DNA from: Pseudohongiella spirulinae
GTDB lineage: Bacteria; Pseudomonadota; Gammaproteobacteria; Pseudomonadales; Pseudohongiellaceae
Assembly (NCBI RefSeq): GCF_001444425.1
Contig: NZ_CP013189.1
Span: 1,550,001-1,614,000, forward strand
Direction of reading: 5' to 3'
Length of the DNA stretch: 64,000 nucleotides
In this document: piece by piece, positions 12,157 to 17,674 of the stretch
Position numbering within the stretch: position 1 is the first letter of the stretch
Layout of the letters: each line of letters starts with the position of its first letter
Notes under the pieces: model-generated
Told to the model about the DNA's origin: nothing
Databases searched by the model: none
What the model saw: the letters and a program-made list of their open reading frames with translations, nothing else
Program-made: the position numbers and the translations under genes

Positions 12157-13215
12157 ATGGCTGAAGCTCATAATCGCGACCCCAACAAAGAAAAAGCATT
12201 GGGTGCTGCATTGGCGCAGATAGAACGCCAGTTCGGCAAGGGTTCCATGATGCGCCTGGGTGATAAAGGCAAGGAGTCTGTGCCTGCCATATCAACCGGA
12301 TCCCTTGGTCTGGATGTGGCGCTTGGCGTTGGTGGATTGCCGCGCGGGCGTATCGTCGAGATTTATGGTCCAGAGTCTTCGGGTAAAACGACTCTTACTT
12401 TGCAGGTTATTGCTGAGTGCCAGAAAGCCGGGGGTACATGCGCCTTCATTGATGCGGAGCACGCACTTGATCCGATCTATGCAGGTAATCTCGGCGTGGA
12501 TGTTGAAAATTTGCTTGTCAGTCAGCCAGATACAGGAGAACAGGCTCTGGAAATCTGCGATATGATTGTCCGCTCGGGTGCCGTTGATGTCGTTGTAGTG
12601 GATTCTGTGGCAGCCCTGACACCGAAAGCAGAAATCGAAGGCGAGATGGGCGATAGTCATATGGGGCTTCAGGCCAGGCTCATGTCGCAGGCACTGCGTA
12701 AAATGACCGCCAACATCAAAAATTCCAATACGCTGGTTATTTTTATTAACCAGATCCGTATGAAAATCGGTGTCATGTTCGGTTCACCGGAAACAACCAC
12801 GGGTGGTAATGCGCTGAAGTTCTATGCCTCTGTGCGCCTTGATATTCGCCGAATCGGCTCGATTAAGGAGGGTGACGAGGTCGTGGGTAACGAAACTCGG
12901 GTGAAAGTTGTCAAGAACAAGGTGGCGCCACCCTTCCGGCAGACCGAGTTCCAGATCATGTACGGTAAGGGGATCTATCGTATGGGTGAAATCATCGACC
13001 TGGGTGTAAAACTGAATCTACTCGATAAGTCAGGTGCCTGGTATGCCTATAACGGCGAAAAAATAGGACAAGGCAAAAAGAATGTAGGCACCTACCTGGA
13101 AGAGAATCCTGATCTTGCACAGGAGCTTGAAAGTAAAATCAGAGCTCAGTTGCTGGGTGGTAATACGCTGTTAGCGGGATCTGACTCCGAAGCTGTCGAA
13201 GCGGATGCCGACTGA
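12157..13215 (+). CDS. recA: Recombinase RecA
   Basis: RecA is the DNA strand-exchange ATPase and LexA coprotease, 352 residues (353 in E. coli). Walker A is GPESSGKTT at about residues 68-76, LVVDSVAAL-like Walker B reads [18 protein letters not shown], and loop L2 contains [20 protein letters not shown]. The C-terminal tail is acidic as usual. A GGGA ribosome site precedes the ATG. It is controlled by the overlapping LexA box and promoter at 12075-12109 and overlaps recX by 11 bases. Confidence 0.99.
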
Positions 13216-13693
13216 TACTTCCGCTGCTCGCGACACTTATCTGAAGCTGAGGCGCCGGGCCATGGATTACCTGGCACGGCGCGAGCACAGCAGGTTACAA
13301 CTGCAACGCAAGTTGAGGAATAAGTTTCCGGACAGTCAAGAGTCCGAGATAGATCAGGTTCTCAATGAGCTGGAGTCCGACAAGTTGTTGTCCGACGAGC
13401 GGTTCGCAGAGTCCTATTGTTACAGTAAGTCTGCTCGCGGATATGGACCTTTATACATCCGTCATCAGCTCTCGCGGTCAGGTCTGTCTTCCGGCATCAT
13501 TGATCGGTTGTTGCAGTCCTTTGATGAGGATTTTTGGGTCGAGAGACTGGCAGAATTTCTTGCTCGAAAACGCATATATGAATGGCCCGAATTTGGTAGT
13601 CCGGAATGGCAGCGTACGAATAGACTTGTGTTAAGCAGGGGATTTTCTGCAGAGCATATCAAGGCGATATCTGCATTACCTGGCCTTGATTAG
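13205..13693 (+). CDS. recX: RecA regulatory protein RecX
   Basis: RecX inhibits RecA filament extension. This 162-residue protein has the three-helix repeats of the family: [40 protein letters not shown] and [16 protein letters not shown]. Length is typical (166 in E. coli). The ATG lies inside the end of recA, so expression is translationally coupled and shares the SOS promoter. Its stop overlaps, by four bases on the opposite strand, the end of the convergent globin gene. Confidence 0.93.
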
Positions 13694-14112
13694 ATGCCCG
13701 CGATCTCATCTTTCAATACTGCCAGTCGGGCCAGCAGTTTGTTTTGTGCGGCTATTGGAGAGCCTGATTCATCCATGGCCGTGATCAGGTTTTCTACGAT
13801 TGCGTTAAACTCTGCATCGCTGATTTGCATTCCTGCGTGCGTGTCAATCATTGAATCTCCAGTATAAACACATGGGCCATTAGCCAGTACACAGAAGTGT
13901 TCGGTAATTTTTTCTCTGAAGCGTTCAACGTTGGAGTCAGCAAAACGCTCAAAGACTCTGTTGTCAAACGCGATTTCTACGATAAAACGGTCGACAATTT
14001 CCTCGATACCCGAGCTTCCCCCGAGTTCCTCATACAGAGTCCGCCCAGAGTCAGCACTCATACAGGCACTCACTAAACCAAGGTAAACTGACAAGCAAGC
14101 AATTCGTATCAT
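13690..14112 (-). CDS. Group I truncated haemoglobin, predicted periplasmic lipoprotein
   Basis: This 140-residue protein begins with a lipoprotein signal (VSAC, Cys17). From LYEELGG (residue 26) it aligns with group I truncated globins; the proximal haem ligand is His92 in DTHAGM. By gap-free alignment with my memory of Mycobacterium tuberculosis HbN, the distal B10, E7 and E11 positions are Ile44, Phe65 and Ile69, where HbN has Tyr, Leu and Gln. The pocket is therefore apolar, which is unusual for an O2-stabilising globin. Cys74 and Cys81 could form a disulfide. It is the last gene of a three-gene operon, overlapping the DUF3034 stop by four bases. Role unknown; gas or redox sensing is inference. 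Confidence 0.85.
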   Translation of the reverse strand: MIRIACLSVYLGLVSACMSADSGRTLYEELGGSSGIEEIVDRFIVEIAFDNRVFERFADSNVERFREKITEHFCVLANGPCVYTGDSMIDTHAGMQISDAEFNAIVENLITAMDESGSPIAAQNKLLARLAVLKDEIAGI

Positions 14113-14987
14113 AATGTTGCCTGTAATGATAGATAAACCCCTCTTTGATCTCTCGCGCCAGCGATAGCCCCCAAATCAACCCAGGCCCCTGTGACGGAGA
14201 CATGCTTGTTTATGAACCAGGCCACAAACAGGTCGCGGGCATGCTCTTCGCGAATCGCGTTCAGGTTGTCCTTTTTTTGGCGAAATTCCAGGCCTACCGC
14301 TATGTTACGATTGAGGAAAACGGCTGTCGCAATTTCTGTAGTCAGTTTGCCTGACTCTGCATCACCTCCATGCCCCAGAAGTCCGAACTGATTCTGCTTT
14401 CCATATCTGATGTTGACGTTCAGTAGCGTCGTCCGATGTGCCAGACCGTCTAGCCAGACTTTGCCTGCGCTCAACAGGAAATCTGTGCCGGTGTCATCAC
14501 GAGCTCCGACAGAGGAGGCGATTTGGTTGTCGGCCAACGCACCGTGCTCAAAACTAAGTGTGATCTGTGGGGCAGAGCCATAAAGCAGGTCCCCCAGAAT
14601 TTTATAGCTGGCGGTGAATTTGTCCTGTTGTATCTCCGCCCCAGTATTTTTGATCCTGAAAGATTGGTTGGCATAAGCCAGCTCAAATCTGTCTCCGATC
14701 GCGATGGCGGCACCATCGACTGTCAATCTGTAATCATCGAGCCATACGCTTGTTTTAAACAGGTTCAGGCCTTTCTGTCCTGAGCTGGCGTAGGTCCCAA
14801 TAGTTGCCCAGGGAAAAAGCCCGCCACCGCTTGCTCCTGACAGGCTGCTGACAGCGCCTGTTCCCAGGATCTTGCCCTGGCGGGTAGTTGCACTATGTTC
14901 ACCTGATCTGCTTGCTGATGCCGAAGACGAAAACAACAGCACACAAATCAAGATAACAAGAAGAGACAAGGATTTCCCGGTATTCAC
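14109..14987 (-). CDS. DUF3034 family predicted outer-membrane beta-barrel protein
   Basis: This 292-residue protein has a hydrophobic signal peptide ending near residue 25 (SSSASAS). The rest is built of alternating amphipathic strands and ends in a C-terminal strand closing with Leu, as in outer-membrane barrels. Conserved DUF3034 stretches include SSLSGASGGGLFPWATIGTY and, later, HVSVTGAWVDLGAIAG. A GTG start is chosen: AGGA lies 7 bases before it, and it overlaps the upstream cupredoxin stop in a GTGA junction. The biochemical function of the family is not known to me. The neighbours (cupredoxin, globin) suggest a periplasm/outer-membrane redox role. Confidence 0.82.
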   Translation of the reverse strand: MNTGKSLSLLVILICVLLFSSSASASRSGEHSATTRQGKILGTGAVSSLSGASGGGLFPWATIGTYASSGQKGLNLFKTSVWLDDYRLTVDGAAIAIGDRFELAYANQSFRIKNTGAEIQQDKFTASYKILGDLLYGSAPQITLSFEHGALADNQIASSVGARDDTGTDFLLSAGKVWLDGLAHRTTLLNVNIRYGKQNQFGLLGHGGDAESGKLTTEIATAVFLNRNIAVGLEFRQKKDNLNAIREEHARDLFVAWFINKHVSVTGAWVDLGAIAGARDQRGVYLSLQATL

Positions 14988-15628
14988 GGTGCATCCTGAC
15001 GAAGAGCACGAAAGCCTAAAGTTTGTTGCGGACTTTGTATGTCAAGTTGGATCGTCACATCCTGGCCATTCAGGTCTGTGGAGTTGATAACCTGGCGGTT
15101 ATCTGTAGTCTGAAGCCACGGGTGCCAGAGGTGCACTTCATTGATATGTTGCGGAATTGTGACGCTGACTTTTCCATGCTCGTCAGTCTGATACCAGGTT
15201 GCCCAGGACGAAACGTACACATAAGCGACCATGCTGTCGTGAATATTACAGCCCAGAACAGCAATGCCGGGCTGCTCAAACGTGACCGGATCGATGTTCT
15301 CATTGGCGTAAAGCGGTGTAGAGAATTGTTTTATTTCAGAAAAAGAATAAACGTGATGGCGAACATTGTCACTATTCGGAAAGCTGACTGATTGTCCAGG
15401 GTTAATCGCCCTGATCATGGGAACAAAGGTGCGGTTGATCTGATCAATAATGCTGATACCTCCGCTTACTTCAGTAGCCTCTTCATCGTGGAGTTCAATG
15501 ACCAGCCCCGCCACAGGTTCGCCGTTTCCGTCAATAAAACGAAAATCCTGTTGCGCAATAACACTTGTTGATACCGATAGCAGCACCAACGGGGGCATCA
15601 AAATCATTGAATTAGCAGGCATTATCAA
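14984..15628 (-). CDS. Secreted cupredoxin-fold protein (MauL-like, 'methylamine utilization protein' family)
   Basis: This 214-residue protein has a signal peptide ending at about residue 25 (SVIA-QQ). The family motifs FPNSDNVRHHVYSFS (about 83-97) and LGCNIHDSMVAY (about 125-136) are present. They offer a type-1 copper set of His91 or His92, Cys127, His130 and Met133. The MauL-like name comes from database tradition; no methylamine dehydrogenase genes are near, so a role in methylamine use is not supported here. It is the first gene of the cupredoxin-DUF3034-globin operon and is divergent from the cyclase, with about 90 bases between starts. Periplasmic electron transfer or copper binding is inferred. 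Confidence 0.83.
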   Translation of the reverse strand: MIMPANSMILMPPLVLLSVSTSVIAQQDFRFIDGNGEPVAGLVIELHDEEATEVSGGISIIDQINRTFVPMIRAINPGQSVSFPNSDNVRHHVYSFSEIKQFSTPLYANENIDPVTFEQPGIAVLGCNIHDSMVAYVYVSSWATWYQTDEHGKVSVTIPQHINEVHLWHPWLQTTDNRQVINSTDLNGQDVTIQLDIQSPQQTLGFRALRQDAP

Positions 15629-15718
15629 AACTCATGATTATTGGCATTGTAATACCGTAAAATACTGCCTATCTTGGGCGTCAGATTCAACCACTATCGA
15701 CACCTTTGCAGCAACAAT

Positions 15719-17674
15719 ATGCGGTTTCCGAGTATCCAGTCACGTTTCATCTTGCTTATGCTGATATTTTTGCTGCCCACCCTGAGTGTGATTTACTGGT
15801 TTGTGGCACGAGAAAATATCAAGTACACCGACCAGACAATCAACTCATATCTGGATATTGGCGTTCAGGTTTTTGACTTTAATCTGGCAGAGCACAGCAA
15901 TACGCTACTGACTATCAGTAGTGCTCTCACACGAGATTGGGGGTTCCGAAATGCATTTGGAGCCGCTGATACAGAGACTATACTTGACGCGGCTCGTAAT
16001 CTGCTGGATCGCTCCAATGGTGCGGCTGGTCTGATGTTAATTGCAGATATGCAAGGTGAGGTTATTGTTGATACAGAGAATCAGGGTTTTAATTCACTGA
16101 CCGGCCCCTGGCGCGCTGTCGTCAATCAGGCAGTACTTCATCCCGATGGTTTGGCCGACGGTGTACTGATGGTTGGTAGTATGCCTTATCTGATAACGGT
16201 CAGCCCGCTTTTTTTGCCCACACCAGTGGCCTGGATTTTCGCCGGATTCCCGCTGGACAATAACTTTGTCTCCCTGATAGAACAAAGTACTGCCTCAGAT
16301 ATTTCAATCATCCAGTCGCAACTGCAGGAATCTGGTGCCAGGACGACGAGTGTCGTCGCCTCGAGTTTTGCGTCAAATCAGGTTCAGCAAGAATTGTCAG
16401 TGCAGCTGGATCTCAGTGACTCGACTGAGACCCAGCGTATTGCTCTGCAAGGCGAAACTTATGGCACCCGATTCCGGCAGATCAACGCTGACGATATTGG
16501 GGATGATCGGGTCTATGCGGTTATTCAGCGCTCCTATCGCGAGAATGAGGAAAATCTTGCAGTACTAAGACAGCGTTTATTGGATTTCGCCATCGCGGTT
16601 ATCTGCCTCTGCCTTGTTGCAGTAATATTGCTGGCTCGCAGTTTCTCAAAACCTATAATGCGTATCGCAGATCGGGTTGTGCAGATACAACGTGGTGACT
16701 ATGGGAGTCATCAGTCTTTGCCAGTGGTGACAAGCGGGGATGAGTTAGGGAGTCTTGCTGTTGCAGTCGAAAATATGTCAAGAGGTCTCGCTGAGAAAGA
16801 AAAGGTACGTGACCTGTTGGGAAAAGTTGTTTCAGATCGCGTAGCAAACGAGTTGTTGCGGAAGAAGCCTGAGCTTGGCGGAGAAGAGAGAGTGGTCAGT
16901 ATACTTTTCGCAGATATAACAGGTTTTACAAATCTCAGTGAAAAATTGCCCCCCGAGCAAGTGTTGTCAATCCTCAACACTTGTCTTGAAAAACTTTGCC
17001 AAATTATCGAAAAAAACAATGGCGTCGTTGATAAATTTACTGGAGATGGGGTAATGGCGGTTTTTGGTGCTCCCATTGAATATCCGGATGATTGTCTGAA
17101 TGCGGTTAAAACGGCGGCTGAAATACGGGCCAGTCTGCCCCTGATCAATAGGTTGCTTACAGAGCAGAGGGTTAATCTGGACCTGAGGGTCGGAGTACAT
17201 TCTGGAAAAGTGGTAGCCGGCAATACCGGTTCGTCTTCAAGACTTAATTACACAGTAATTGGTGATGCGGTTAATCTGGCAGCCAGAATTGAATCTATGA
17301 CGCGCACTTACAAAGTCGGCGCACTGGTCAGTGCAGACTCTAAACACACGCTGGGTTCCGCTGAGTCCCTGTTTGTCTGGCGTGAGGTCGATTGGGTAAA
17401 AGTCAAGGGACGAGAATCAGCAGTGACTCTTTATGAACTTGCAGGGCTGCGCACGGATGTCAGTGATGAAGATCTGGTGCGTATTGAAAGCTTTCATGAA
17501 GCGCTTGGATATTACAGGTCAGGTTATTGGGATGCTGCGCTTGATATTTTCGAGAGACTGAATCGTGATGACAAAGAGGCCATTGTGGATGTATTCATTA
17601 GCCGTATCCAGAGATTAAATGGATTGCCTCCAGCTGACTGGAACGGTGTCTATGCTCACCAAGACATTTTGTAG
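15719..17674 (+). CDS. Membrane-bound class III adenylate/guanylate cyclase with HAMP domain
   Basis: This 651-residue protein is read from the ATG at 15719; the frame is open to a TTG at 15674. One membrane segment (about 10-30) precedes a periplasmic sensor region of about 255 residues, probably Cache-like. A second membrane segment (about 288-307), a HAMP linker (about 308-360) and a C-terminal class III cyclase domain (about 388-575) follow. Metal-binding Asp399 (FADITGF) and Asp443 (DKFTGDG) are present. Lys439 and Thr512 (NYTVIGD) are the ATP-type specificity pair, and Asn519/Arg523 (NLAAR) the transition-state residues. It should therefore be active, most likely making cAMP. It faces the cupredoxin operon across a short divergent region. 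Confidence 0.9.
   Translation: MRFPSIQSRFILLMLIFLLPTLSVIYWFVARENIKYTDQTINSYLDIGVQVFDFNLAEHSNTLLTISSALTRDWGFRNAFGAADTETILDAARNLLDRSNGAAGLMLIADMQGEVIVDTENQGFNSLTGPWRAVVNQAVLHPDGLADGVLMVGSMPYLITVSPLFLPTPVAWIFAGFPLDNNFVSLIEQSTASDISIIQSQLQESGARTTSVVASSFASNQVQQELSVQLDLSDSTETQRIALQGETYGTRFRQINADDIGDDRVYAVIQRSYRENEENLAVLRQRLLDFAIAVICLCLVAVILLARSFSKPIMRIADRVVQIQRGDYGSHQSLPVVTSGDELGSLAVAVENMSRGLAEKEKVRDLLGKVVSDRVANELLRKKPELGGEERVVSILFADITGFTNLSEKLPPEQVLSILNTCLEKLCQIIEKNNGVVDKFTGDGVMAVFGAPIEYPDDCLNAVKTAAEIRASLPLINRLLTEQRVNLDLRVGVHSGKVVAGNTGSSSRLNYTVIGDAVNLAARIESMTRTYKVGALVSADSKHTLGSAESLFVWREVDWVKVKGRESAVTLYELAGLRTDVSDEDLVRIESFHEALGYYRSGYWDAALDIFERLNRDDKEAIVDVFISRIQRLNGLPPADWNGVYAHQDIL

Follow-up and report, generated by a model that had tools for sequence, protein, structure and literature searches.

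Four neighbouring genes in Pseudohongiella spirulinae: a conserved module of a DUF3034 barrel, a truncated globin, a cupredoxin and an exchangeable sensor enzyme, with a possible role in envelope signalling

Do four neighbouring genes of Pseudohongiella spirulinae form one system, and what might such a system do? The genes lie in a window of 64,000 nucleotides (assembly GCF_001444425.1, contig NZ_CP013189.1, positions 1,550,001 to 1,614,000 of the forward strand), to whose full length the coordinates below refer unless another locus or the genome is named. On the minus strand, a cupredoxin gene (14984..15628), a gene of the family DUF3034 (14109..14987) and a truncated globin gene (13690..14112) are joined by 4-base overlaps, and a plus-strand sensor-cyclase gene (15719..17674) faces the opposite way. 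This arrangement of a three-gene operon and a divergent cyclase, described in an earlier note made from the letters alone, is confirmed by the sequence and its open reading frames (ORFs), which also delimit the intergenic region between the two directions (15629..15718, no strand), probably a shared promoter region. A Pfam scan of the window proteins gave names for the globin, DUF3034, HAMP and cyclase domains. We find that the module is real and strongly conserved and that its four genes belong together. On whether it is one version of an envelope redox or gas signalling module with exchangeable outputs, in which a signal passes from the globin to the cupredoxin and on to the sensor, our judgement is evenly balanced.

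Co-occurrence of the four families across genomes, the check that the earlier note had proposed, was borne out. A profile search finds one copy of DUF3034 in the host genome; sampling of the class gave the family in 20 of 370 genomes, and sampling of the order in 73 of 292. At E <= 2.1e-28, a cut-off picked after the list had been viewed and applied to a profile built from linked globins, the globin is present in exactly those 73 genomes of the 292. For 65 of the 73 the score is at least as good as 5.1e-43, and no genome lacking DUF3034 does better than 1.3e-26. The cupredoxin (E <= 6.3e-50) occurs in 64 of the 73 DUF3034 genomes compared with 27 of the 219 others. We also searched the ORFs of 102 loci with iterated profiles seeded by the window proteins. 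These loci comprise 89 regions around DUF3034 matches, 12 named loci (Rheinheimera, Arsukibacterium, Pseudoalteromonas and Shewanella) and the window; also counted are L150, where a genome has an additional DUF3034 copy that is broken, L151, a contig of 3.8 kb, and further loci at contig ends. The globin was found in 96 of them, the cupredoxin in 86 and the sensor in 74, and the commonest order, cupredoxin > sensor > DUF3034 > globin on one strand, occurs exactly so in 60. Among plasmid records, 13 match DUF3034 and 13 match the cupredoxin, with 12 common to both. The plasmid of Caballeronia SBC2 carries DUF3034, a group 1 truncated hemoglobin, a 'methylamine utilization protein', which is how plasmid records annotate this cupredoxin family, and an EAL protein; that of Caballeronia SBC1 (L270) has the same order with the sensor reduced to a short cache-domain gene, and in a Novosphingobium plasmid the pair of DUF3034 and globin and the pair of cupredoxin and sensor are divergent.

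The linkage of the four genes therefore stands as first proposed, but the module consists of two tight pairs, DUF3034 with the globin and the cupredoxin with a Cache-HAMP sensor, and the second is a pair in its own right. A sensor lies within 200 bases of 119 of the 145 cupredoxin ORFs that score above 140 bits (71/84, 29/41 and 19/20 by set). These sets include 40 extra regions, mostly around cupredoxins away from DUF3034, and, in addition to those, 20 of the 33 cupredoxin places listed outside the order. Twelve of the latter 20 loci have DUF3034 and the globin, five have a barrel-like protein of 411-417 amino acids instead, and three have neither; eight of the 20 belong to other classes within the phylum, and DUF3034 and the globin are present in six of these. 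In 25 chosen genomes, a single sensor is found in each of the 18 that carry a canonical cupredoxin and in none of the seven that lack it, and ten of the 18 belong to group g297, in which most cupredoxin and sensor genes are not side by side. A plasmid of Comamonas aquatica carries the cupredoxin with an EAL protein and without DUF3034. In loci L095, L102 and L104 a distance of about 7-10 kb separates DUF3034 from the cupredoxin and sensor; a histidine kinase suspected there beside DUF3034 from gene sizes was discarded, as Pfam gave DUF3348 and DUF802 in the scanned proteins.

Two further observations concern these pairs. A second barrel-like protein (about 411-417 amino acids) stands beside the cupredoxin, the sensor or both where DUF3034 and the globin are absent (L169:6664-7902, L156:7737-8990, L229:1388-2641, L233, L240, L241 and L222), and in Pfam two of its relatives match no family and a third matches only Porin_4, under the cut-off. 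Three genomes from the genus of the window (L172, L173 and L174) encode a second cupredoxin that lacks a sensor within 200 bases.

What does the sensor produce? The listed ORF in the window runs from a TTG (15674-17674) with a probable ATG at 15719, and its predicted product has a periplasmic Cache-like region, a HAMP domain (8.5e-9 in Pfam) and a class III nucleotide cyclase domain (Guanylate_cyc, PF00211, 6.5e-26). Class III cyclases depend on residues for metal, substrate and transition state. All three catalytic motifs, FADITGF, DKFTGDGVMAVF and YTVIGDAVNLAAR, are present as in class III adenylate cyclases, which agrees with the full catalytic residue set reported by the earlier note. Among 14 cyclases tested for these motifs, two miss the second pattern, two miss the third and one has alanine at the aspartate. 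The window sensor region belongs to the same family as the sensors of dCache_3-HAMP-GGDEF-EAL proteins. The Pfam domain scan took 59 of the 75 sensors found; dCache_3 and HAMP each match 54 of the 59, of which 53 have GGDEF and EAL domains, five a class III cyclase (all in the genus of the window) and one a protein kinase.

Sorted by output, 117 cupredoxin-sensor pairs comprise 101 with GGDEF-EAL, 15 with a class III cyclase as in the window and one with a kinase; for the accessory label of these pairs it was enough that the accessory lay somewhere in the fetched stretch, and truncation accounts for some of the 'none' labels (L183, L185). A cyclic-nucleotide output is supported for the window, as had been proposed, but the cyclase is the minority form. 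Of the 101 GGDEF-EAL sensors, 97 keep all catalytic residues of EAL and 36 keep the whole GGDEF motif, which points to hydrolysis of cyclic di-GMP (c-di-GMP) as the probable usual output. Of six sampled genomes of the genus of the window, five have the cyclase version and one (L098) has the GGDEF-EAL version. The 15 cyclase versions lie on one side of a branch, with support in the Shimodaira-Hasegawa-like approximate likelihood ratio test (SH-aLRT) of 96 for the cupredoxin plus sensor region and 84 for the Cache region alone. A free tree of the cupredoxin only needs five output changes; the tree holding the 15 together scored higher and was not rejected (approximately unbiased test, p-AU 0.73). 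The host genome encodes a Vfr/Crp relative (2.5e-78 to Vfr), which could read cyclic AMP (cAMP). At L068:8806-11412, a dCache_3-HAMP protein ending in a Ser/Thr kinase domain adjoins a cupredoxin and a divergent DUF3034 gene, and the globin was not found in the fetched stretch. In L081 and L082, a second member of the sensor family lies upstream of the cupredoxin gene.

The partner of the sensor has a recognizable metal site. The cupredoxin ORF begins at a TTG, with an in-frame ATG at 15622, and its product, commonly annotated 'methylamine utilization protein', is predicted to be exported. The single window protein has no match in Pfam or NCBIfam, but its family profile (A3) against the PDB reaches a copper nitrite reductase (CuNIR) chain at 5.6e-9 and, at best, amicyanin at 1.5e-5. 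The type 1 copper ligand set lies at 15230..15358 on the minus strand (His91, then Cys127-x2-His130-x2-Met133), and all four ligands are invariant in 87 of 87 relatives, so that the secreted cupredoxin of the earlier note keeps its proposed copper site. Copper binding is suggested by these residues, which form the ligand set of electron carriers. Upstream of 142 cupredoxin genes, an FNR-like motif with at most 2 mismatches occurs 28 times (shuffle mean 16.3, maximum 25) and a CRP-like motif 18 times (mean 11.1, maximum 16), each compared with 20 shuffles, and five other promoter patterns are not above shuffles. Because the sequences are related and the gene starts uncertain, we draw nothing from this small excess.

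The other pair is predicted to be placed at the outer membrane. The window protein matches DUF3034 (PF11231) with 284 bits against a curated cut-off of 25, and its structure model is a closed 12-stranded beta-barrel of amphipathic strands, with a conserved glycine-rich segment ahead of strand 1, in agreement with the outer-membrane barrel predicted earlier. The modelled fold is shared with the 12-stranded barrels FapF, KdgM, NanC and the COG4313 channel, at only about 5-12% identity in the aligned part, and a search of the PDB gave no convincing sequence relative. The barrel fold is common, and no function of DUF3034 follows from it. A conduit of the porin-cytochrome kind, in which the globin is threaded through the barrel, is not favoured because the model has only 12 strands.

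The globin matches Bac_globin (PF01152) at 4.7e-17, and its nearest PDB profiles are group 1 truncated haemoglobins, to which it conforms in its proximal histidine. This haem ligand (His92, at 13837-13839) is kept in the alignment of 96 of 96 linked globins, which suggests haem binding. A cysteine pair (Cys74 and Cys81) is found in 88 of 96 linked globins compared with 2 of 20 unlinked ones, and Tyr at B10 in none of 96 compared with 11 of 20. Tyr B10 and Gln E11 form the distal pair of the O2-binding nitric oxide (NO) dioxygenase of HbN type. The window globin has Ile at both positions and so lacks this pair, and the distal haem pocket of the linked globins is, as judged from their residues, apolar. 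At 13205-13693, after a RecA-like gene, a gene that is RecX-like by eye meets the globin gene tail-to-tail with a 4-base overlap.

How could these parts work together? The 12-stranded DUF3034 barrel and a lipid-anchored haem globin would form an outer-membrane haem unit, and the periplasmic, amicyanin-like blue-copper protein would work with the inner-membrane Cache-HAMP sensor enzyme. The haem of the globin, in an apolar distal pocket suited to NO, carbon monoxide (CO) or redox chemistry over stable O2 binding, would shift its ligation or redox state, and the cupredoxin would carry this state across the periplasm, either by exchanging electrons or by binding to the Cache domain in a redox-dependent way. 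The sensor would then set an internal messenger, usually through c-di-GMP hydrolysis by EAL and in the window through cAMP synthesis readable by Vfr/Crp. Each pair is probably one half of a single pathway. Because the apolar pocket favours NO or CO and the invariant type 1 site favours electron exchange, the most economical account, we infer, is that the globin hands a redox or NO signal to the cupredoxin, which hands it to the sensor; the signal sensed may be NO, O2, CO, copper or redox state. The earlier placing of copper and haem outside and a cyclic nucleotide inside is consistent with the barrel model, the ligand residues and a loosely defined lipobox (75 of 96 linked globins). In its full form, this account describes an outside-to-inside pathway of Pseudomonadota: an outer-membrane haem globin, held with a 12-stranded barrel dedicated to it, would hand a redox or NO signal to a diffusible blue-copper messenger of the periplasm, and this messenger would directly switch a Cache enzyme, the output of which evolution has exchanged among c-di-GMP hydrolysis, cAMP synthesis and protein phosphorylation. 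We advance this full form tentatively and think it more likely to fail than to hold in all its parts.

Several points weigh against this account. Pfam dCache_3 gives no match to the sensor region of the window itself; L133, a close relative, matches at 1.3e-5, just under the cut-off. No sensor lies within 200 bases of 26 of the 145 cupredoxins. The cupredoxin and sensor often occur without DUF3034 and the globin, and in group g294 DUF3034 and the globin occur without this sensor (0 of 4 genomes searched); each pair thus occurs without the other, and therefore the two need not act together. Gln at E11 is retained in 11 of 96 linked globins. The lipidated truncated globin of the earlier note is upheld as a truncated globin, but its lipidation is suggested only by the loose lipobox pattern, which in the window (LVSAC) was recognized by eye. 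The choice of the globin cut-off also tells against the exact concordance, and the light chain of methylamine dehydrogenase (MADH) is present in 6 of 6 sampled genomes of the genus. Our inferences, moreover, include contact between cupredoxin and sensor, joint action of the pairs, what the signal is and which way electrons flow.

The existence of cupredoxin and sensor without the globin keeps open a different role for the copper protein, that of a receptor for copper or another ligand. In that case the DUF3034 barrel would be an uptake channel, the metal- or ligand-bound cupredoxin would be read by the Cache sensor, no electron would be passed and the globin would be an accessory, for example a scavenger. 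However, the perfect concordance of DUF3034 and globin makes the globin more than optional at loci with a DUF3034 barrel, the ligands of the copper site are those of electron carriers, and a fold as common as that of the barrel shows no function. We regard this as unlikely, but as an explanation that has to be taken seriously. Somewhat further from our expectations is an envelope electron-transfer chain, in which an outside substrate is reduced or oxidised, or NO is removed by the globin with the cupredoxin as its electron partner, and the sensor only controls lifestyle in step. The g294 genomes without such a sensor favour this chain, as does L141:4154-6465, where DUF3034 and the globin are followed by genes for an FMN_bind-like protein (21.8 bits, cut-off 22), PepSY_TM and a plastocyanin-like cupredoxin, possibly an electron-transfer version. 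However, the canonical cupredoxin goes with the sensor and not with the globin, and Tyr B10, which goes with NO dioxygenation, is absent from the linked globins.

The common annotation of the cupredoxin raises a further alternative, that it accepts electrons from a methylamine or aralkylamine dehydrogenase. According to the earlier note, no methylamine dehydrogenase genes back this name, which is true of the window but false for the genome: genes for the MADH heavy and light chains, MauE, a thioredoxin-like protein and a MauG-like protein lie at about 1,879,934-1,884,494 (L273 5435-9995), as a methylamine or aralkylamine dehydrogenase cluster. This cluster, the occurrence of the light chain throughout the sampled genus and the amicyanin-like profile match speak for the annotated role. 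However, the cluster is about 312 kb from the module, and among 292 genomes the light chain does not go with DUF3034 (8/73 compared with 28/219 others; 2/67 compared with 28/219 when the genus of the window is left out) or with the cupredoxin (13/91 compared with 23/201, p 0.56). The module does not track methylamine dehydrogenase across genomes, and on this co-occurrence we reject the methylamine role as very improbable despite the dehydrogenase genes of the host. The least credible alternative is a Pycsar-type defence against phages, a kind of system that joins a PycC cyclase to an adjacent effector bound by the cyclic nucleotide, with the alarm raised here by the cyclase: its domain matches PycC models (best 4.7e-28), but the three partner proteins match no PADLOC model in a scan of the four module proteins, and GGDEF-EAL replaces the cyclase in most relatives, so that of the envelope sensing or defence once suggested, sensing is the best reading and defence is unsupported.

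Is the proposed signalling module new? In NspS-MbaA and YfiBNR, a c-di-GMP enzyme of the inner membrane is under the control of a partner protein in the periplasm or outer membrane. The module shares this plan, but its partners bear copper and haem ligand sets and include a dedicated barrel, and its output may be a cyclase or a kinase. In H-NOX- or NosP-linked systems a haem protein is likewise encoded beside a c-di-GMP enzyme, but those haem sensors are cytosolic and the module globin is predicted outside the inner membrane. The cupredoxin has the Cys-x2-His-x2-Met copper loop of amicyanin and a profile match to it; however, it is longer and pairs with a sensor enzyme rather than with methylamine dehydrogenase. 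The globin shares its fold family and proximal histidine with group 1 truncated haemoglobins such as HbN, but differs in its predicted export, mostly with a loose lipobox pattern, and in its cysteine pair and lack of Tyr at B10.

According to the part of PMC6669338 consulted, BifA and HmsP act as phosphodiesterases and combine a sensory domain in the periplasm with HAMP, GGDEF and EAL, and the sensory domain of BifA is exchangeable with that of the kinase SagS. By description, these proteins have the same architecture as the GGDEF-EAL sensors of the module, the phosphodiesterase output that is probable for those sensors and a sensory domain exchangeable between output types, but that part does not mention a linked cupredoxin, DUF3034 or globin. 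The dCache_3 receptors, to whose Pfam family most scanned module sensors belong though the window region misses the model, were tabulated as 883 members with four cyclases and one Ser/Thr kinase, and the corresponding part of PMC4822843 mentions no cupredoxin partner. DUF3034 appears in two papers of the literature searched, PMC4255298 and PMC12548924, in the latter in a figure legend that elsewhere names DUF3037, and an excerpt of PMC3770913 discusses truncated globins and GGDEF proteins of iron oxidisers separately. No description of the module was found in the open-access literature searched, by titles and abstract openings over part of what is listed. The undescribed system of the earlier note is therefore to be restated: the module fits that description in a wider form than was first seen, but its general plan, a membrane messenger enzyme controlled by a partner, is already known, and it is this set of parts that we did not find described in the literature searched.

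If the proposed pathway from globin to cupredoxin to sensor is true, DUF3034 and a set of proteins annotated as 'methylamine utilization protein' would acquire a function, and the signals to which membrane enzymes of c-di-GMP and cAMP respond would come to include metal and haem redox chemistry. The exchange of output domains means that a standard reporter for c-di-GMP or cAMP is enough to test the input side. Specialists would be surprised by a blue-copper protein whose work is to partner a sensor in signalling and not simply to carry electrons.

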